64,000 nt of DNA, taken from assembly GCA_951812775.1 (NCBI GenBank), contig OX638326.1:1066335-1130334 (forward strand), written 5' to 3'. Source of the stretch: an uncultured Alphaproteobacteria bacterium (lineage in GTDB: Bacteria; Pseudomonadota; Alphaproteobacteria; MPNO01; UBA2964). This document shows, one piece after another, positions 3,629 to 42,039 of this stretch; the first letter of the stretch is position 1; each line of letters begins with the position of its first letter. The notes under the pieces were generated by a model. It worked only from the letters and a program-made list of their open reading frames with translations. It was not told the DNA's origin and made no database searches. The position numbers and the translations under genes were made by a program.

Positions 3629-4876
3629 ATGGACGCGAAGGACGTATTGGCTCTGGGGCTTGGGGTTTCGCCGCCGTGGCGACTGGTTGACCAGAGCCAG
3701 AATACGGACAAGTCTGCCCCATGTTGGGGAGATTCTGCTGGAGGCGGATCGTGGCGCTGAGTTCCCTTGCCCCGAATGCGGCCGGCCCTGCAAGGTGCAT
3801 GATTTCAAGGAATTCACTTGGCGTCACCTGAACTTCTTCCAGCACCATTGCCTGATCACGGCGCGGGTACCGCGCACGGACTGCCGCGGGCACGGGGTGA
3901 AGCGGCCCACCGTTCCGTGGGCGCGCGAGGGCAGCGGGTTCACGCTTTTGTTCGAGCAGGCGGCGATGGCGCTGGTCCGAGAGATGCCGGTGCTGGCCGC
4001 CGCCCGGTTCATCGGCATCACCGACAAGCGGCTGTGGCGGATCGTCGCGCATTACGTCGCCAAGGCATTGCGGGGTCTTGATCTTTCTGGCCTCAAGGCG
4101 TTTGCCTTCGACGAGACGGCGTCCAAGCGGGGCACAACTACGTCACCGTGTTCATCGACGCCGACCGCAAGGACGATCCGGTGGTCTTTGCCACGCCGGG
4201 CAAGGGCAAGGAGACGGTCAAGGCGTTCAAGGCCTTTCTGAAAGCGCACGGCGGCGATGCAACCAACGTCAAAGAAGTGGTCTGCGACATGTCGCCCGCC
4301 TTCCTCGTCGCCGTCGCCAGGGAGTTCCCCAAGGCCGAGGTGACCGTGGATTGGTTCCATGTGGTGCAGTTATTCACCAGAGCGGCGGACGACGTGCGCA
4401 AGGCGGAACGCAAGCAAGTGCAAATGCCCGCCGCCGCCCGCTAGGCGATCCTGAAAGCGCATGACGGCGGCAAGTTGACCGACAAGCAGGCCGTCGCCCT
4501 GGCCGAGCTGGAAGCCGGAGACTTCCTGACCGCCAAGGCTTGGCGGATCAAGGAGAAGCTCCGCTGGGTGCGCCGCGCTGCAACCCCGCGGGCCACGCGA
4601 TGGCGGCTCTCGCACTTCCTGCGCCACGCCCGCGCACAGATTGGCGATGGCCCGTTGTTCGAGTCCGTGGGCAAGACCCTGAACACGGTCGAGAAGCATT
4701 CGGAACGCATCTTGGAGCGTTGGCGATCAACCCACAGCAATGCCCGCATGGAAGCGATGAATGACCCGTTCCAGGCTGCAAGGGCGCGGGCCAGGGGTTA
4801 CCGCAACACTGAAACCTTCATCACCATGATCTATTTGATCGCGGCCCCGCTTGGAGATAGATTCAAATCCACTTGA
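3629..4876 (+). pseudogene. ISL3-family transposase, three lesions
   Basis: The reading begins MDAKDVLALGLG at 3629. The frame is lost in a C run near 3716-3719 (one extra base) and continues as the zinc-ribbon region (CPECGRPCKVHDFKEFTWRH) and the ITDKRLWRI helix-turn-helix. It is lost again near 4133, where one C is missing before NYVTVFIDADRKD, the start of the catalytic core. The core contains VVCDMSPAF and VTVDWFHVVQLF, and the tail contains RARGYRN and FITMIYLIAAPLG. A TAG at 4442-4444 replaces what is normally Trp. With two frameshifts and one nonsense codon it cannot give an active enzyme. Confidence 0.9.
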
Positions 4877-7261: not shown

Positions 7262-8956
7262 TTACCAAAGATTGATGTCGGTGGAATCAGGCTGGTCCTC
7301 GGGCCTTAAGACCTGAACCGGCATGGTCATGGGTGTGTCGAGGCCAATGACCAATGCCTCTCCCTGCCCGAGAACGGGCAGGAAGGCCGCGGCGGAAGCA
7401 TCAAGGCTGCCGCAAGCGTTTTCAACAACCTGGCGATCCCGGTCGTTAATGAGCCGGTGAACGATAAACATGCCCATCTGGCTGAGTACGTCCTCGGGAA
7501 TATCACGCGGACGCTGGGTCGATAGAACAGTGAGAAGTCCGTATTTGCGACCTTCTTTGGCGATCAAGCCAAACGATTCCAGACGGAAGCGATTGTATTC
7601 GTCGCCAACGCTCTTGTTCAAAAACTGGTGGGCCTCATCCAGCACCGTAAGCAAGGGCCGGTCCCTGAAGGCGCCCGCGCGCGCTTTTGTAAGCAGATAT
7701 CTTCCAAAACCGTTCGCCACGAGCTCGCGTGTATTATGCTCGAACGGCAGATGCTCCATGGAAATGCGCAATATGCTCTGATCGTCGTCAGCCAGAAACT
7801 GATCAAGAATTTCGGTCAGGTCCGGAAAACCTGCTGGCGAGAAGATCGATGCCATTTCATTGGAATGAATTTGGACGGCAATCCGGCTGACCAGTGTTGT
7901 GCAGTAGCCCCGGCTATTCTGGTCTGAACCGCCCCAACTATTCGGGTTGGGATTTTGCGGCGGGCCGCCTGTCGGCCACACGCATTCCTCATAGATTTGA
8001 TCGGGAAGCCGGGTGATATCGTATTCCGCGCCGGGCTCGCGAATAGCGGCGGCATGTTGCTCAAGCGCCGCATTAAAATCCGCCTTGGAACGGTTCACCT
8101 TCTTCAGCAGCCCGTCCTCCGCCAGTGTCGGTTGGCAATGCAGTAATTTCAGGCTGGCGAGCGCTTCACGAAGCTTGGGCGACTGTGATCCCCCGCTCGG
8201 GTGGAACATCGCAAACAGGTCGCCCTCAGAAAGATGTTTGTAGGGAAAGCTTACATATTCTCGGTTACCTTCGGCCCCGGTTGGCCTGCCCCCGAGATTG
8301 ATGTGGCGAACACGTTCGGAGAGCGTATGAAATTCACCGCTGGGGTCGAAAAGAACCACCTTGCCACGGTGCCGCACGACCTCACCTAAAAGCCGGGCGA
8401 CCGTCCAGCTCTTGCCGCCGCCGGTCGTACCCAGGATGGCGCAGTGCCGGCCAAAGAGAGCGGACGGTGAAAATGTTACATGAGTCGTTGGGGCGTTCGG
8501 GACATGCGCGAGACCGACGAACTTACCTTCGGTGTCTGGCTCATCCTCAATAGCGTGCTTCACGAGATCAGGATGCGCGGCATAAGCATACTGACCGATA
8601 CGCGGATGCGTCGGCACGCCCCGTACGGTCTTGCCGGTCGATAATTCGATCGACAACAAGAGCTGCACGATGCCAACCGGGTTGGAATTCGTCTTTTCAA
8701 CCTCGCGGGTCGGCTCGACGGTAAGCCTTTCCCCTTCCGGCAGGCGCACCTGCGTTATGCGCCCGAGTATGGCGTGTGACTCGCCTTCTATGAGTACGAA
8801 TTCGCCAACTTCCCCTTTTCCGATGCGGTGACCTGAATAGCTCGACGACACGGGACCGCTGCCGTAGGGCAGGTTCAGGCGAACATGCGCGGGCTCAACG
8901 TGGATGACCGTTCCCACATAGCGACCGGAATCGAAGGGTGCGGTGGGCAATGGCAT
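7262..8956 (-). CDS. herA: HerA-like ATPase/helicase of a SIR2-HerA defence pair
   Basis: A 564-residue hexameric translocase-type ATPase. Residues 1-90 form the HAS-barrel (RYVGTVIHVEPAHVRLNL). Walker A is GTTGGGKS at 176-183, followed by VVLFDPSGEFH. Walker B is LLTVLDEAHQFL near residue 440, and the arginine-finger region contains LSTQRPRDIPEDVLSQ. The gene starts two bases after the stop of the SIR2 remnant, the order known for SIR2-HerA anti-phage systems, in which HerA assembles with the NAD-degrading SIR2 protein. The frame is complete. With its SIR2 partner cut away it has probably lost its defence role. Confidence 0.85.
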   Translation of the reverse strand: MPLPTAPFDSGRYVGTVIHVEPAHVRLNLPYGSGPVSSSYSGHRIGKGEVGEFVLIEGESHAILGRITQVRLPEGERLTVEPTREVEKTNSNPVGIVQLLLSIELSTGKTVRGVPTHPRIGQYAYAAHPDLVKHAIEDEPDTEGKFVGLAHVPNAPTTHVTFSPSALFGRHCAILGTTGGGKSWTVARLLGEVVRHRGKVVLFDPSGEFHTLSERVRHINLGGRPTGAEGNREYVSFPYKHLSEGDLFAMFHPSGGSQSPKLREALASLKLLHCQPTLAEDGLLKKVNRSKADFNAALEQHAAAIREPGAEYDITRLPDQIYEECVWPTGGPPQNPNPNSWGGSDQNSRGYCTTLVSRIAVQIHSNEMASIFSPAGFPDLTEILDQFLADDDQSILRISMEHLPFEHNTRELVANGFGRYLLTKARAGAFRDRPLLTVLDEAHQFLNKSVGDEYNRFRLESFGLIAKEGRKYGLLTVLSTQRPRDIPEDVLSQMGMFIVHRLINDRDRQVVENACGSLDASAAAFLPVLGQGEALVIGLDTPMTMPVQVLRPEDQPDSTDINLW

Positions 8957-33746: not shown

Positions 33747-34890
33747 TTACCTATCAGCCACCGACCTATACCCCCAATACTCTCGCGCCAGTGCCACCAC
33801 CAATTTAATTTTCGCTGCCTGGTCATCGAAAGAGATCGGATTACCACTATCGAGACTGGCAAAACCGCATTGCGGGGAAAATCCCGAGTCTATCCATATC
33901 GATATATTGTGCAGCATCTTCAATCCGTTGTTTCAATGTATCAATTTGCTCAAGTGCCGATGCTTTTGTCGATACGAGGCCCAGAATAACTGTCTTATTA
34001 TCCGGAACTTCACGGAGGGGTTCAAAGCCGCCAGCGCGCGGTGAATCATACTCCAGAAAGTAAAACTGCACGTCCAGTTTCCGAAAGAGCTTGGAAGCGA
34101 CATCGTCATAGCCTGCCGCTGCTTGCCAGGATCCGCCTTTATTGCCCCGGCACAAATGCATCCCGAGACTTAAGTCTTTAGGGGTACGCTGGGCAATTTC
34201 ATTGATCACGTCCGTGTAAACTTCCAGGAGATCATCCCACCGGTCACCGCGCTTCTCCAGACCTTCGCGTATTTTAGGGTCACCGAGTTTGGCAATAGAC
34301 GTTTCATCAAGTTGAATGTATCGACAACCTGCTGCGTATAGCGCTCCAATCTCTTTCAAGTAGGCCTCAATCAAATCCTGCCAAAATTCATCCAAGTCGG
34401 GATACACATCTGTACTGATATTGTCGCGGCCCGATCTGAAATGGATGTAACAAGGCCCCGGTAGGGTCACTTTCGGTGTACCGGCACCCGCTAGACCCGC
34501 AACAAACTCGAAGTCCTCGACATTGACTGGGCCTGGCCACTCCAGCCTGTCGACAACAATCGGCACTCTGCCTTCCGTCGTTTGACCTTGCACATTGGAA
34601 TATGTCCAGTTCCGGTCTTCTGTTGATCCAATTTTGACGCCTGTAAAAACATCGACCGTAAAACTGTCCGAATAGGCATGGCGACGATATTCACCGTCTG
34701 TAATCGACGACAATCCCAGCTCCAATTGAAGTGCGATGGCCTGCGAAATAGCCTCATCCTCCGCCTGCCGGACTTCCTCATCGGAGATTTTACCTGCGAC
34801 ATGATCAGCACGAAGGGCAAGCAAAGGTGCTGGCCGAAGGAGACTACCGATATGTTCTGCCCGAAAGGGCGGGTTGATAGGTGAGGTCAT
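33747..34890 (-). pseudogene. MetE-like cobalamin-independent methyltransferase, 3' frameshift
   Basis: A short (C-terminal-domain type) methionine synthase II-like zinc methyltransferase. The ATG at 34890 is chosen because GGAG lies 9 bases upstream; a TTG at 34920 is the alternative. The TIM barrel contains ITDGEYRR, the zinc ligands His and Cys in LGMHLCRGN, and the conserved ELDE-like RYIQLDETSIAKL. After MDRLGI the open frame ends as FPAMRFCQSR at 33847. Removing one base in the run at 33874-33881 restores SPQCGFASLDSGNPI, with the third zinc ligand, and a proper C-terminus stopping at 33747. Either a true lesion or a base-call error. Confidence 0.8.
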
Positions 34891-35013
34891 ATCCAAATTC
34901 TCCGAAAATCGATACGTCAATAATTACATCCTACCATGCCATAAATACGCTTGCAGCGCCGTTCAGAGTCAGACGGCTTGTCAGCAACAATTTTCCGACC
35001 CATAAAGACTGAC

Positions 35014-35933: not shown

Positions 35934-37472
35934 TCAGCTTTTCGCCTTTGTCAGCCTTAAGGCGACAAATCGTGAATCGCCACCACGTTCAATCAGAAAC
36001 AGCAAACTCTTGAGCTTGGCCTTTCGGGCGCTCTCAACTTTACTCTTTACCTGATCGGGTGAATTAACGCGTTTCTGCTCTGGTCCGATTTTCCGAATGA
36101 TTGAACCAACGCGAATGTGCTTTTCCGACGCCGGGCTATCATTGGCAACCTTGGTAATGACCACACCAGTGACCTTCTTGCCGAGCTTGAAACGGCGACG
36201 CAGCTCATCTGTGACTGGCGCCATCGTCAATCCGAGAACCGTTACTGCCTTGCCATCATCTTGTTTCTTGCCACTCGCTTTGGCCAAAACAGGCTTTTTA
36301 TCTTCTGGGAATTCGCCAAGTTTGGCATCGAGTGTCACTTTCTTGCCTTTGCGCCAGACATCGACCTTGACGTTTTTACCCACTTCAGTTTCTGCGACAA
36401 TGCGCGGTAAGTTCCGCATCTCAACAATCGGCTTACCGTCAAAACTCAAGATCACATCACCGACCTGAACCTTCGAGCTTTCAGCGGGCCCACCTTTAGT
36501 TACGTCTGTAACCAAAGCACCCCGCGCCTTGTCAAGACCAAGGCTTTCCGCAAGTTCATCCGTAACTGTCTGAATCCGAACGCCGAGCCAACCACGCCGC
36601 GCGCGACCATACTTGGTCAATTGCGCAATGATCGGTTTGGCGAGATTGGTGGGAATGGCGAACCCAATACCAACGCTGCCGCCAGAAGGGGAATAGATAG
36701 CAGTATTAATACCAATCACCTCGCCGGCCATATTAAACATTGGCCCACCAGAATTGCCTTTATTGATAGACGCATCGGATTGAATGAAATCGTCGTAAGG
36801 ACCAGCATTAATATTGCGTGCGCGGGCTGAAATGATGCCGGCCGTCACGGTGCCACCAAGGCCGAAGGGATTGCCAATGGCCACAACCCAGTCGCCAACA
36901 CGTGCCTTATCCGAATTCCCGAATTTCACGTAGGGCAAGTTCTTTTCTGATTTGACTCGAAGTATGGCGAGGTCTGTTTTCGCGTCACGACCAACGACCT
37001 CTGCTTTGAGTCGCGTGTCATCTTGTAATACGACCGAGATATCATCCGCACCTTCGATAACGTGATTATTTGTTACAACGAGGCCTTTGGGATCAATTAT
37101 AAAGCCAGAACCTAGCGAAGTAGCACGTCTGTTTGGTGTGTTCCGCTGCTGCTGACGATCAAAAAACTCTTTGAAAAATTCCTCAAAAGGTGAACCTGGC
37201 GGCAATTGGGGTCGTTGCTGTTGCGTCGCGCCCTCTCGTTTCACAACCTGAGAAGTCGAGATGTTGACAACTGCAGGAAGAAGTTTTGCGGCCAGATCGG
37301 CGAAGCTTGCCGGGGCGGCCTTTGCGAAGGCTGCGCTGGAGAGCATTAGGCCTCCTGCGATTACAAACAGGGAAAGGGACCATATCCTCAACAAATTGCC
37401 CGCATTTTTCTTCGCGTTGCTGGAATATGTATGCCGTGCTGCATACAAGGGGACAAACTCCGAGTTCTTCAT
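35934..37472 (-). CDS. degP: Do-family periplasmic serine protease
   Basis: A 512-residue HtrA/DegP protease-chaperone. It has an N-terminal signal region (hydrophobic LSLFVIAGGLMLSSAAFAKA, about 33-52), a trypsin fold with His in NNHVIEGAD, Asp in KTDLAILRV and Ser in NKGNSGGPMF, then two PDZ domains (about 290-385 and 410-505). Start supported by AAGGAG eight bases upstream. It probably serves envelope quality control; regulation is not readable. Confidence 0.95.
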   Translation of the reverse strand: MKNSEFVPLYAARHTYSSNAKKNAGNLLRIWSLSLFVIAGGLMLSSAAFAKAAPASFADLAAKLLPAVVNISTSQVVKREGATQQQRPQLPPGSPFEEFFKEFFDRQQQRNTPNRRATSLGSGFIIDPKGLVVTNNHVIEGADDISVVLQDDTRLKAEVVGRDAKTDLAILRVKSEKNLPYVKFGNSDKARVGDWVVAIGNPFGLGGTVTAGIISARARNINAGPYDDFIQSDASINKGNSGGPMFNMAGEVIGINTAIYSPSGGSVGIGFAIPTNLAKPIIAQLTKYGRARRGWLGVRIQTVTDELAESLGLDKARGALVTDVTKGGPAESSKVQVGDVILSFDGKPIVEMRNLPRIVAETEVGKNVKVDVWRKGKKVTLDAKLGEFPEDKKPVLAKASGKKQDDGKAVTVLGLTMAPVTDELRRRFKLGKKVTGVVITKVANDSPASEKHIRVGSIIRKIGPEQKRVNSPDQVKSKVESARKAKLKSLLFLIERGGDSRFVALRLTKAKS

Positions 37473-37636
37473 TTCGTTCTCCTTTTTGCGAACATGCCTG
37501 AACAGGCAAGTCTGGTTACCGCATCTTAAACTTAAAGATCAGCGACGGGAGAATTTTTCCCAAATCGCTGCTCCGCTCGGGCACGATATGGGTATCAAAT
37601 GAGGCATCATTTGGGCATTTTCCACCCCTCACACGT

Positions 37637-37668
37637 ATTTTACTACAAATAAATTTTACTACAAATAA
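37637..37668. repeat. perfect tandem 16-bp duplication upstream of degP
   Basis: Units 37637-37652 and 37653-37668 are identical (ATTTTACTACAAATAA). AT rich, 165 bases upstream of the degP ATG in a 285-base gap without a gene. Confidence 0.85.
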
Positions 37669-37757
37669 AGCAAAATTACGTGAGCGGGGCAGCTGACAGC
37701 AGAATATTTCAGAGCTGCCCTTGTCTACTTAACTGATTGATCGCCCAGCGACGATAA

Positions 37758-37928
37758 TCAGGATCCCAGATGGTCCGCTCCTTGTGGAAGGATAAGGGAC
37801 GCGACACCATGTTCAGCAATTTGAATAAATGAATCAGGGGCCACTGTATTCACAGCGATTACAATCCCCACCCCGGCAATCGCAATGACGCATTTCAAAA
37901 TCAGAACTGATCGAAAAAACCTATTCAT
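37758..37928 (-). CDS. small single-span membrane protein
   Basis: A 56-residue protein starting at the ATG at 37928 (MNRFFRSVLILKC), preceded by GGGTGGTGGG; a longer in-frame extension upstream is less likely. One hydrophobic helix (about 8-28) precedes a short polar tail. Unrecognised. It lies between the broken kinase and degP on the same strand. Confidence 0.4.
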   Translation of the reverse strand: MNRFFRSVLILKCVIAIAGVGIVIAVNTVAPDSFIQIAEHGVASLILPQGADHLGS

Positions 37929-38095
37929 AACCCACCACCCTTTAATCCATTTGCGACAGGGCTCAACCAGAGCCAATCTCAGCGGTGGAATAGTAAATAG
38001 GACGGCGTGGTCATAGCGTGGCAAAGGTAAGACAAAATTGTGGCAACGCACAAATGGCTGAAACTCATAATAAAATAAGTTAGTTAGGGATCATA

Positions 38096-39655
38096 TCAGG
38101 GGAGTTTGAGGGTGATTTGAAGGCCACCTTGAGGCCTGTTGCCTGCAAACACGCTTCCGCCAATAGCCTCTGTATTCCGACGAACGATCCACAAACCTAC
38201 ACCAAAATGCTGATCCTGGGCGCATGTCGCTTCTGGACTGCGTTTGGTAAAATACTGATCAAAAACACGTCCCAAATCAGCTTCATCAATACCAGGTCCG
38301 GAGTCCTCTAGCCTGATGATACCGGTTCCGTTTTCCTTGGATATCCGGATTTGAATTGCTTCGCCTTTCGGCGAAAAACTCGCTGCGTTTTCCAAAAGAT
38401 TTTCAAGAACCGTTTCCAACGAGTCTTCCTGCGCGAGAACGACTACTGACTGGCTGGCATCAACTGAAATTGACAGGTCCTTTGACACCAGTGCCGCGGT
38501 ATATTCTTCAGCCATTTTTCGGCACAGCCCTGAGATTTCGACTGGCTCACAGGTCGGGTCAATAATTTCCGCGGAAGCTTCATCCATCCACTTGGCAATG
38601 GAAACGAGATTGTCCAGCCGCTGAACCGAATGCTCAATAATTTCAATGGCGCGCTGTGTTCTTCCATCACTGACGTCTGATGACCTTTTTAGCGGTTCCA
38701 CCGCTTGCGCGATAACCGCAATAGGTGTCTTGAAAGCGGGCGCATTATCTTCCGCCATATAGCGGATCATTTGAGCTGAATGCCGTAAGGCACCCACCAT
38801 CCGATCAAACTCGGTCGCAACCCCGCTCAGTTCGGGAATATGGTTCTCCGCTGCAAAAGTTGTGTTGTCGCGCTTTCGCGTTCTTATACGCCGGGCCAAG
38901 GTTGCAAATCGTTGTAAATTACGGCGACCGTCCAAAAACAACAGGACAACGAATACATCCATAAGGATATAAATTATCGCCGCAAAGCGTATTTCAGGTG
39001 TTTGCCAATAGGGCCGCCCAATACCTGTTTCCAAGAAATCTGCCGCCGCCGTTGATGTGATAACGACCCAGCAACCCGCCCCTGTATTTGCAGCCCGCAT
39101 CGAAACAAGCAATTCTTCTTTACCTTTGGGATTACGATACCGCGCCGCCGTAGAATCTATACGTTCACATGTCGCGGGCACACTATCGAAAATACCCGTT
39201 TGAACCAGTTCCTCCTGTTCACTCGCCAGGTAGCTCGCGGAAACTTTCGGCGCGGATGCAACGTAGTAAAAGCCGTTAGCCGCTGCTGCTTTAACAGGCC
39301 GATACAGAACCTTAATATTTGTTTCTTCGCCGCCGATCCGTGAGAGAACCGCAGCAACGTCACTAATTGTTTTAGGCGTGAATTCTGAAAGATGAGGCTT
39401 GATCGACTCTGCAACGAGGCGCCCTTGTTCCTGCGCCGCTTTCAGCAGAAGAGGCTGTTTATCCTCATCCGCTGCACGAAACTGCCCATACAGAATCTAC
39501 GGCACCGCAATAAAGATCGCCAGGAGCAACGCAAGTTTTGTCGCGAACGCTCTGACAATAAGTAGAGCCCGCGCAACTAAAGAATCCCAAGCCTTACGAA
39601 TCGACGCGCCAGCGGTATCCGAAACCGGGGTAATTCTCGATACGATCGAAGCCAT
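38096..39655 (-). pseudogene. sensor histidine kinase with nonsense codon and lost phospho-acceptor
   Basis: A ChvG-like membrane kinase. From the ATG at 39655 the frame gives a cytoplasmic start, a membrane helix ending LLLAIFIAVP, then TAG at 39497-39499, then an uninterrupted frame to 38096: a periplasmic sensor (ILYGQFRAADEDK onward), a second helix (IIYILMDVFVVLLFL), HAMP-like linker, dimerisation helix, N box LLENAASFSP, DSGPGI and HFGVGLWIV. The H box reads AEDNAPAFKTP: Pro (38738-38740) replaces the His. Two independent lesions argue for decay. It overlaps the regulator gene by 62 bases. Confidence 0.85.
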
Positions 39656-40367
39656 TGTCGACCTCACGAAATTTTTGCCTAATTCTTTTGATAAATGCCC
39701 TGACATTGGCTCGGTAACCCTGCTCCCCCATTCCAGCGATAAAGCCTTCCCCACGGACCAAATCATAGATCTCGCGATATCGGACATCTCGCCCGCACTG
39801 CCGCGCAGGTAAATGGACGATCCTGAACTCGGTAAGGGTAAGGTTTATTCTATCATGTCGCCAGTCCGCGCGACCAATATCAGGGTCGAGTATTAAATCG
39901 CCAAGCGCAAATGTAGCGTCATTATCCTGTGCAATGGCGGTTTCCGTAGCTTGCGCCTTGGGCCCATCCATAATGAGTTCGATCCGGTGCTTCAAAATAG
40001 TATAGCTCCGGGATTTCTCGACAAAGTCGACAGCACCGCCGATCAATGCCGCCTCTTCATACATTTGGTCAGAAAGAGCGGTAAGGAATATGACCGGAAC
40101 TTCGTGGCCGGAGCTTCGCAGCTTTCGCAACACTTCAATCCCCGTCATCCCTGGCATGCGCCAGTCGAGAAGGATTAGGTCCGCCCTGTTACCGTCCTCA
40201 AGAAATGCGAGAACAGTTGGCCCATCACCGAATGCCCAGGAGTCAAACCCGGTATCGATCAGATTTTGCTGTAACGACTCACGAAACAACTCATCGTCAT
40301 CAACGACGAGAACCCTCGTCAAATCCGTCGGTGGGGGGGTCAAAAGAACTTCTGCATTAGCTGCCAT
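39594..40367 (-). CDS. OmpR/ChvI-type response regulator
   Basis: A 257-residue regulator. The receiver (about 17-135) has the acidic pair DDDE, the phospho-acceptor Asp in LILLDWRMPGMTG (about residue 68), Thr in VIFLTALSD and Lys in VEKSRS. A C-terminal winged helix (about 165-255) shows LTLTEFRIVHL, GRDVRYREIYDLVRG and ENYPGFGYRWRV. It is upstream of and overlapping the kinase gene, and its ATG overlaps the lipoprotein-like gene by 11 bases. With the cognate kinase broken it may be orphaned. Confidence 0.88.
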   Translation of the reverse strand: MAANAEVLLTPPPTDLTRVLVVDDDELFRESLQQNLIDTGFDSWAFGDGPTVLAFLEDGNRADLILLDWRMPGMTGIEVLRKLRSSGHEVPVIFLTALSDQMYEEAALIGGAVDFVEKSRSYTILKHRIELIMDGPKAQATETAIAQDNDATFALGDLILDPDIGRADWRHDRINLTLTEFRIVHLPARQCGRDVRYREIYDLVRGEGFIAGMGEQGYRANVRAFIKRIRQKFREVDNGFDRIENYPGFGYRWRVDS

Positions 40368-40851
40368 TGCCTGCTGCCTTTATTTTGCCAAGACATGTTG
40401 GTGAGACCGCGCCCTTCTTACCCGCATTCTTCAGATCAAAAGTAAGCGCACGAAAGGTTTTTGAGCCGACATCCAGATAGAAGAACACATCTAACGCGCA
40501 CCCTTTCGCGCGATAGCTCCAGACGGTGGACGGCGGCGAGTCGGCAATTGTTACCGGCGCTCCTATCATTTCGCGCACTTGATCCCGCGTCAGTCCAACC
40601 AGGGACTTCGGTTGAATTTTAACGACCGGTTTCAGTTTAGGCTTTCGCTTTGGCGCTGGGGCGACCCGCATCGCCAATTGCCGCCTGTCGGCGCCATCCG
40701 GGTGAGAAACAGAATCAACGACAGGCGCTGCGTTTTCCTCACCTGCTTTGGTAGGTTTGGAACGATTGTCTTCGTTCAAAAGCAGGATCGCCGGAAAATT
40801 GCTACACCCGGCACGCGCCAGCCCCGCCGCAATTACCAACGTCCGTTTCAT
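40357..40851 (-). CDS. SmpA/OmlA-like envelope protein
   Basis: A 164-residue protein. The N-terminus MKRTLVIAAGLARAGCSN looks like a lipoprotein signal with Cys16, but the residues before the Cys (ARAG) fit the lipobox poorly. A proline/lysine-rich linker follows, then the C-terminal domain (about 85-150) LVGLTRDQVREMIGAP, TVWSYRAKGCALDVFFYLD, typical of the SmpA/OmlA fold. It is the first gene of a unit with the regulator and kinase. Precise function unknown. Confidence 0.65.
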   Translation of the reverse strand: MKRTLVIAAGLARAGCSNFPAILLLNEDNRSKPTKAGEENAAPVVDSVSHPDGADRRQLAMRVAPAPKRKPKLKPVVKIQPKSLVGLTRDQVREMIGAPVTIADSPPSTVWSYRAKGCALDVFFYLDVGSKTFRALTFDLKNAGKKGAVSPTCLGKIKAAGNGS

Positions 40852-40947
40852 GCCAACCCCGGTCGTCTACCGCACTTGCGACTCAGTGCGTAATATTAGG
40901 ACGATAGCGGAGTTTTCACCCGTTTAGCAATCAATGGCTCATTTTTG

Positions 40948-41136
40948 TCACAACCGTATTAACCATACGATGCCGACCCCGATGATTGCCGCAAGGAGCC
41001 CGGCGGTCCGCATCGACGACGATGGCATCGATAGTGCAGCAACCATCATTCGTTTCATCGCTTCGGGAAACAGTGCGTAAAGCAGGCCTTCGATTACCAA
41101 AACCAGGGCAAACGCAATCACCAGGTCGGGATACAT
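40948..41136 (-). CDS. DUF2065 small membrane protein
   Basis: Sixty-two residues with two hydrophobic helices (about 4-22 and 44-61) and the family pattern EGLLYALFPEAMKRM then GLLAAIIGVGIVWLIR. It commonly follows hflC, as here (21-base gap). Function unknown. Confidence 0.85.
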   Translation of the reverse strand: MYPDLVIAFALVLVIEGLLYALFPEAMKRMMVAALSMPSSSMRTAGLLAAIIGVGIVWLIRL

Positions 41137-41157
41137 CCCGTATTGCGCCTTTACGGC

Positions 41158-42039
41158 CTATTTGTCGCTTGGGTTCTTTCCACCCAAGTCTCTGAAATAG
41201 CGAAAAAATTCGCTATCTGGTGAAAGCACCATCGTGGTGCCGTCGCCAAGCGATTCACCGTAAGCTTCCATACTCCGGTAGAACCCGAAAAATTCTGGAT
41301 CCTGACCGAAAGCATCATTCAGCAATTTGGTTTTAAGGCCTTCCCCTTCACCACGAAGAATCTGGCTTGTCCGTCTTGCCTCAGCAAGAATAACTGTTCG
41401 TTCCCGATCAGCATTGGCTTGGATCTCAGCCTTAATTTGTGCGCCTTCAGAACGAAGTTTAACAGCCTGCTCAACACGTTCCGACCGCATCCTGTTATAA
41501 ACGGCCTGACTTGTCGCTGGTGGCAAATCAGTTCGACCAATGCGGACATCAACGACCTCAACACCAAAATCGGAGGCCTCACTCTTCATCTGTTGTGTAA
41601 TACGGGCCATTACGTCGTCGCGTTTATCAGACAACATATCGCCGAGCAGAATTCGACCGACCTCTGCCCGGACCGCCGCGTTCAGGCGACCACCAAAGAC
41701 CTGTAGGAAGTTGGTTTGTGTGACCGCCCTTTTCTTAAATTTAAGTGGGTTGACGATTTTGTAGCGCACAAATGAATCCACGTTTATGCGTTTTTGGTCA
41801 GCTAGCACCACTTCCTGCGCCGGTGGGTCAAGATCAAGAAGGCGTTTCTCGTAATACTCCACGCTTTCCAGAAACGGCTTCTTGAAGTGCAAGCCCGGGT
41901 CGCTCGCGGTTCGCACATAGCGACCAAACTGCAGGACCAAAGCATGTTTGGTCTGGTGCACAGTATACATTGCGTCAAACGCGAGGACTCCACCGACGAC
42001 AATGACGACACCCATTATGACAAGAATAATTTTGTTCAT
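41158..42039 (-). CDS. hflC: protease modulator HflC
   Basis: A band-7/SPFH membrane protein that forms the HflKC cage around FtsH and limits its activity. The ATG at 42039 (MNKIILVIMGVVIVV) overlaps the hflK stop (TGATATG) and gives an N-terminal membrane anchor (about 3-22). The SPFH domain has KHALVLQFGRYVRT and GLHFKKPF; the helical part includes RMRSERVEQAVKLRSEG. 293 residues. Confidence 0.95.
   Translation of the reverse strand: MNKIILVIMGVVIVVGGVLAFDAMYTVHQTKHALVLQFGRYVRTASDPGLHFKKPFLESVEYYEKRLLDLDPPAQEVVLADQKRINVDSFVRYKIVNPLKFKKRAVTQTNFLQVFGGRLNAAVRAEVGRILLGDMLSDKRDDVMARITQQMKSEASDFGVEVVDVRIGRTDLPPATSQAVYNRMRSERVEQAVKLRSEGAQIKAEIQANADRERTVILAEARRTSQILRGEGEGLKTKLLNDAFGQDPEFFGFYRSMEAYGESLGDGTTMVLSPDSEFFRYFRDLGGKNPSDK

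Follow-up and report, generated by a model that had tools for sequence, protein, structure and literature searches.

The gene for a sensor histidine kinase in the window (the whole stretch of DNA analyzed here, 64,000 nucleotides from an uncultured alphaproteobacterium) contains an in-frame TAG codon and encodes proline in place of the histidine of its H box. At a rough probability of 0.73 we read this gene as a recent loss-of-function relic in an operon that is no longer maintained. Judged by comparison with the sequences of its relatives, it is probably a real, recent pseudogene in an operon that was repeatedly lost; that the loss is recent is what we infer. The kinase gene comprises the following features.

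38096..39646, minus strand: sensor histidine kinase frame, interrupted (ORF list, translation, domain search and relatives)
39497..39499, minus strand: TAG, Trp in four same-genus relatives (translation and alignment)
38738..38740, minus strand: H-box codon CCC (Pro), with His here in 63 of the 64 distinct homologues that reach this site
38096..39181, minus strand: open part past the stop (GTG start, 361 codons), including the catalytic domain

The first-pass annotation of this DNA had described an H box without histidine and an internal stop past the first membrane helix, and both were confirmed. The frame reads AIFIAVP*ILYGQF around its single stop, which falls, as judged by eye, where the first hydrophobic segment ends, and the H box reads DNAPAFKTP. 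A check of both sites in relatives, which had been proposed alongside, found Trp and His in all four same-genus relatives with the gene (G008, G010, G011 and G005), encoded by TGG at the stop site and by CAT (G008, G010 and G011) or CAC (G005) at the H box. The start of the kinase is uncertain, since the in-frame ATG (39644-39646) falls within the regulator gene and shows no conservation in G005, and the first ATG, GTG or TTG downstream of the TAG is the GTG at 39181. A position of the TAG upstream of the true start was rejected: the Pro directly before it is conserved in 57/57 and the Tyr three codons past it in 56/57 kinases from outside the genus, which places the TAG inside coding sequence. 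Recoding of TAG was likewise rejected, since this codon ends nine of the 30 tabulated ORFs in the window and the relatives have TGG.

The kinases of G008, G011 and G010 share 86-89% identity with the open part and have uninterrupted frames of 575-580 aa, while the G005 kinase (76% identity) has one in-frame TGA. A profile built from five intact kinases matched 61 of the 385 genomes of the class. Among 64 distinct kinases covering the H-box column (L120, the same locus as L074, and six alignment rows lacking the column were dropped), the window kinase was the sole exception to His. A proline shared by relatives in an uninterrupted gene, which would have spoken for a functional pseudokinase, was found in none of these 64, and a lineage-wide pseudokinase was rejected, Pro occurring in no other homologue. 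Conservation was assessed on 62 rows of 450 or more aligned residues, 57 from outside the genus and five from within it, and internal stops were present only in the window and G005, that is in 2/5 genus kinases versus 0/57 outside (p=0.005 with genomes treated as independent). In the outside row L074 a stop falls in the second aligned column, which is probably upstream of the start of that gene. The claim of kinase loss was upheld by this comparison, with both lesions confined to the window genome, the His otherwise invariant and the frames of G008, G010 and G011 uninterrupted.

Domain searches placed the window kinase above the cut-off for HATPase_c (74.9 versus 26.4 bits) and below that for HisKA (20.3 versus 26.9 bits). 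The intact relatives tested also fell short of the HisKA cut-off (25.8 and 25.0 bits, one not listed), so that a sub-threshold HisKA score is weak as a criterion here. The earlier description of the ATP-binding boxes as intact proved correct, as the N, D-x-G-x-G, F and G-x-G residues that are invariant in 57/57 outside rows are all present. On the other hand, two further features expected of an active kinase, the phospho-accepting histidine and an uninterrupted gene with the membrane-sensor part, are both missing, and the relatives do not have a conserved non-His residue in an uninterrupted gene as a retained pseudokinase would. Membership of the 361-aa fragment in the best-scoring NCBIfam families, CreC (114 versus a curated cut-off of 356 bits) and then ChvG (108 versus 740 bits), was rejected. 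Three further loci (L112 in G026, L113 in G230 and L114 in G121) encode the sensor part of this kinase family within long frames of 711-874 aa; the profile match there ends before the H box, a lipoprotein homologue is present at the same loci, and other outputs may be attached to the sensor. In the sensor part, 57/57 outside kinases share two cysteines, which may form a disulfide. The AlphaFold model of the sensor part had a mean pLDDT of 48.4 (three sequences, 96-97% identical).

Selection on the kinase was compared with that on its neighbors, the initial 18 codons of the kinase, where it overlaps the regulator gene, being left out of the branch and N:S comparisons (all selection p-values are one-sided and uncorrected for the number of tests). 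Lineage-specific N:S for the kinase was 28:40 in the window versus 35:108 in G008, G010 and G011 combined (p=0.011), and the five neighbor genes gave 60:196 versus 104:381 (p=0.30); within the window genome, the kinase differed from its neighbors with p=0.003. The kinase protein branch was 2.47 times that of G008, compared with 1.26 times for a control concatenate in which 101 of 1,899 columns come from the lipoprotein gene, itself part of the module (p=0.025 as counts). At the near-invariant columns the window kinase departs at one of 32, the His itself, and outside kinases at 0-3. Neither residues never seen outside (8/28 vs 5/37, p=0.12) nor substitutions in columns with conservation of 75% or higher (5/28 vs 3/37, p=0.21) were in significant excess. 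Four individual substitutions were Ala230Asp, Arg352Lys, Arg353Trp and Arg464Gln, at positions where the original residue is present in 47, 45, 41 and 55 of 57 outside kinases, respectively; Asp at position 230, in the second hydrophobic segment, occurs in 0/57 and Gln at 464 in 1/57. Synonymous sites are near saturation between species, with many dS values undefined, so that the lesions cannot be dated.

These data bear on the proposal of an ATP-binding non-kinase retained in the open part, which had been one of two fates offered for the gene. A protein made from 38096-39181 might bind ATP, dimerize and modulate another kinase or the regulator; it would have every catalytic box within its 361 open codons, and there are precedents in a ChrS variant and in DivL, which are taken up at the end. 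We nevertheless hold this to be very improbable and found the proposal unsupported, given that Pro is found in no relative and kinase N:S is raised on the window branch, that Ala230Asp and Arg464Gln are absent or nearly so from outside kinases, and that other operon genes are damaged as well.

The order lipoprotein-like gene, PhoB-type regulator, kinase, by which the module was recognized, is present in the window. Of the 57 kinase rows from outside the genus, 56 have a lipoprotein homologue upstream on the same strand and 56 have the regulator next to the kinase; an Azospirillum record shows this triplet too, its first gene being annotated as hypothetical. Within the genus, two small ORFs (s1, about 55 aa, and s2, about 60 aa) follow the module, and the whole set lies between hflC and degP. 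The libraries searched contain no named family for the triplet, the order of which is conserved in many Alphaproteobacteria, and in the open-licence literature no paper was recognized as being about the operon, searches for FeuNPQ and the Azospirillum triplet included. The remaining features of the operon in the window are listed here.

40357..40851, minus strand: small lipoprotein-like gene whose lipobox is RAGC, against LAGC or VAGC in the four relatives
39594..40367, minus strand: PhoB-type response regulator with intact frame and receiver residues
39807-39809, minus strand: regulator Leu187Pro, DNA-binding domain
39795-39797, minus strand: regulator Ser191Cys, DNA-binding domain
38018..38046, minus strand: direct repeat TTGCCAC-N15-TTGCCAC ahead of s1, a candidate binding site of the regulator
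37758..37928, minus strand: s1, small genus-conserved ORF with one hydrophobic segment, last codons altered by a deletion
37709..37780, minus strand: remnant of s2, last 23 codons (alignment to G008)

As deduced from the relatives and general knowledge, the working system would consist of a membrane kinase with a periplasmic sensor containing the two invariant cysteines, probably assisted by the envelope lipoprotein encoded alongside. The kinase would autophosphorylate on the H-box His and then phosphorylate the adjacent PhoB-type regulator, whose probable target in the genus is the direct repeat that precedes s1 and s2. In the window, the TAG would remove everything past the first hydrophobic segment of the kinase, and a protein restarted at 39181 would still be expected to be unable to autophosphorylate, through the change from His to Pro alone. 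That the operon as a whole has fallen out of use is suggested by the altered lipobox, by Leu187Pro and by the s2 deletion; the functional effect of these and the other missense changes is predicted from sequence.

A permissive lipobox-like motif was found in 53 of 65 lipoprotein loci (21 repeat loci left out). BamE membership of the lipoprotein was considered and rejected, as PF04355 reached 16.7 bits in the G008 protein against a cut-off of 23.2 and was absent from the scan results of five other homologues. About 130 bp of the G008 sequence are missing in the window between s1 and the last s2 codons. The s1 orthologue of G011 matched no Pfam family above cut-off; we take it as possible that s1 acts as a feedback peptide, like those encoded next to some other kinases. 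The 22-bp period of the direct repeat would suit tandem binding by a PhoB-type regulator. Each of the five module genomes has a single exact copy of the repeat, and none was found in G009 or G004. Since these sites are orthologous and one-mismatch matches (12 in seven genomes) were close in number to those of a reversed-pattern control (eight), the repeat is weak evidence for an operator, and a wider regulon was rejected. Rfam gave no structured-RNA match at gathering thresholds in 37400-41300.

The regulator had been described as complete, which held for the frame and the receiver domain and failed for the DNA-binding domain. Pro187 and Cys191 occur in 0/58 outside regulators, Leu is present at 187 in 44/58, and Leu187Pro is placed in the first helix of the DNA-binding domain; all regulator columns conserved at 90% or more are retained in the window. 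The test of selection on the regulator that had been proposed was run and showed no rise in N:S (window 9:30 versus 11:51 in G008, G010 and G011 combined, p=0.34). In G010 the regulator (L021, start at 8777) lacks one Asp codon of an acidic cluster, which may be either real or an assembly error.

A dead kinase whose regulator is kept as an orphan, served by other donors or acting unphosphorylated and still binding the s1 repeat, has to be weighed against these results. The intact receiver residues and unraised N:S are consistent with it, as are the exact TTGCCAC repeat and the mostly retained s1, at least 20 other kinase-like matches in the window genome and a precedent in Francisella tularensis. 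However, a normal-looking regulator is expected anyway after a recent loss, Leu187Pro lies in the DNA-binding domain and is seen in none of the outside regulators, and the same genome has most of s2 deleted and the lipobox changed. Moreover, regulator and kinase were both found in the same 7/27 genomes of the order and both missed in the other 20, several of the 27 being incomplete, so that at the thresholds used 0/27 have the regulator without the kinase. An orphan regulator seems unlikely to us, though it deserves consideration, and we favor decay of the operon as a whole.

Comparison within and around the genus revealed a range of states of the module. It looks intact in G008 and G011, the lipoprotein gene is interrupted by single-base frameshifts in G010 and G005, and in G009 the module is deleted, with its flanks contiguous on one contig. 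The G009 interval between hflC and degP aligns to positions 1-472 and 3715-4152 of G011 with nothing between, which indicates a deletion that begins just past the start codon of the lipoprotein gene and reaches into the last part of s2. In the tree, G009 groups with G011 and G010 at 99% support (G010 with G009 at 58%). In G001, G002, G003 and G004, degP directly follows hflC and the module is absent; for G004, loss versus never having been present depends on the tree (92 and 85% support). Frame breaks affected 4/20 module genes (four genes in five genomes) versus 2/45 neighbor genes (p=0.067), the latter count leaving out hflC in G011 and G005 as well as a HAD-like gene in G008 with a stop at the fifth codon; when these three are counted the value is 5/45 (p=0.28). 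The hflC genes of G011 and G005 were rejected as broken, their apparent stops preceding the start. The G011 assembly has frameshifts in several other genes, and G009 and G010 are 72% and 67% complete; assembly errors may account for the single-base events in the draft relatives.

Six genomes without this kinase (G001, G002, G004, G006, G007 and G009) are smaller, at 1.4-2.8 Mb, and partly incomplete. A first look counted 7-11 kinase candidates in these six smaller family genomes versus 22-48 in the other seven, and signalling is possibly streamlined in the former.

Taken alone, the window kinase is one more pseudogenized sensor kinase. The apparent repeated loss in one genus offers a natural series, intact, damaged and deleted, for the question of whether the module is dispensable or costly. 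Loss of the module may have been selected for in the genus, by different routes in separate lineages, and not merely tolerated; we regard this as quite unlikely. As truncations in Salmonella are discussed as possibly adaptive in one report (PMC9241588), it is retained as the boldest reading; if true, an active module would be costly under a condition common to these species.

Sequence or assembly error in the window genome would account for the TAG by a single base, TGG being one base away, and one other gene of the window may carry such an error: a MetE-like gene at 33753-34920 on the minus strand (cobalamin-independent methionine synthase-like, PF01717) shifts frame near 33884 relative to G005, G008, G009 and G011, either really or through an assembly error, at a T run, a common site of errors. 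However, the CCC codon is two bases from CAT, the commonest codon of the relatives, only one of ten tabulated neighbor genes is frame-broken in the window genome, and that genome is a single contig of 4,149,033 bases with a completeness of 99.58%. The damage in this one operon is also of different kinds, comprising nonsense and missense changes and the deletion of about 130 bp, in genes that are retained or were separately lost in relatives. This pattern makes a real recent loss likelier than error, which we consider extremely improbable, and decay likelier than a retained pseudokinase.

Among known systems, the precedent for an orphan regulator is found in Francisella tularensis SchuS4, for which one source lists FTT1543 as an orphan regulator beside the kinase pseudogene FTT1544 (PMC6584805). 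As in the window, a kinase pseudogene stands next to a retained frame of the partner regulator, and close relatives have an intact pair. In contrast to the window, this concerns other bacteria and another system, the window operon additionally shows marks in the lipoprotein and the downstream genes, and several genomes of its genus are affected. According to a second source (PMC9491836), a ChrS variant of Corynebacterium glutamicum is a functional histidine pseudokinase, which resembles the window in that a kinase was disabled by mutation while its regulator remains. The ChrS change, however, is a frameshift in the catalytic domain that arose under laboratory selection with a demonstrated gain, whereas the window kinase, as read from its sequence, has an open catalytic domain and has lost the His and the N-terminal part. 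The same source describes DivL of Caulobacter as an alphaproteobacterial histidine-kinase relative that works without kinase activity (PMC9491836); the window kinase differs from it in that the change is found in one genome, together with a stop, and the relatives retain the His.
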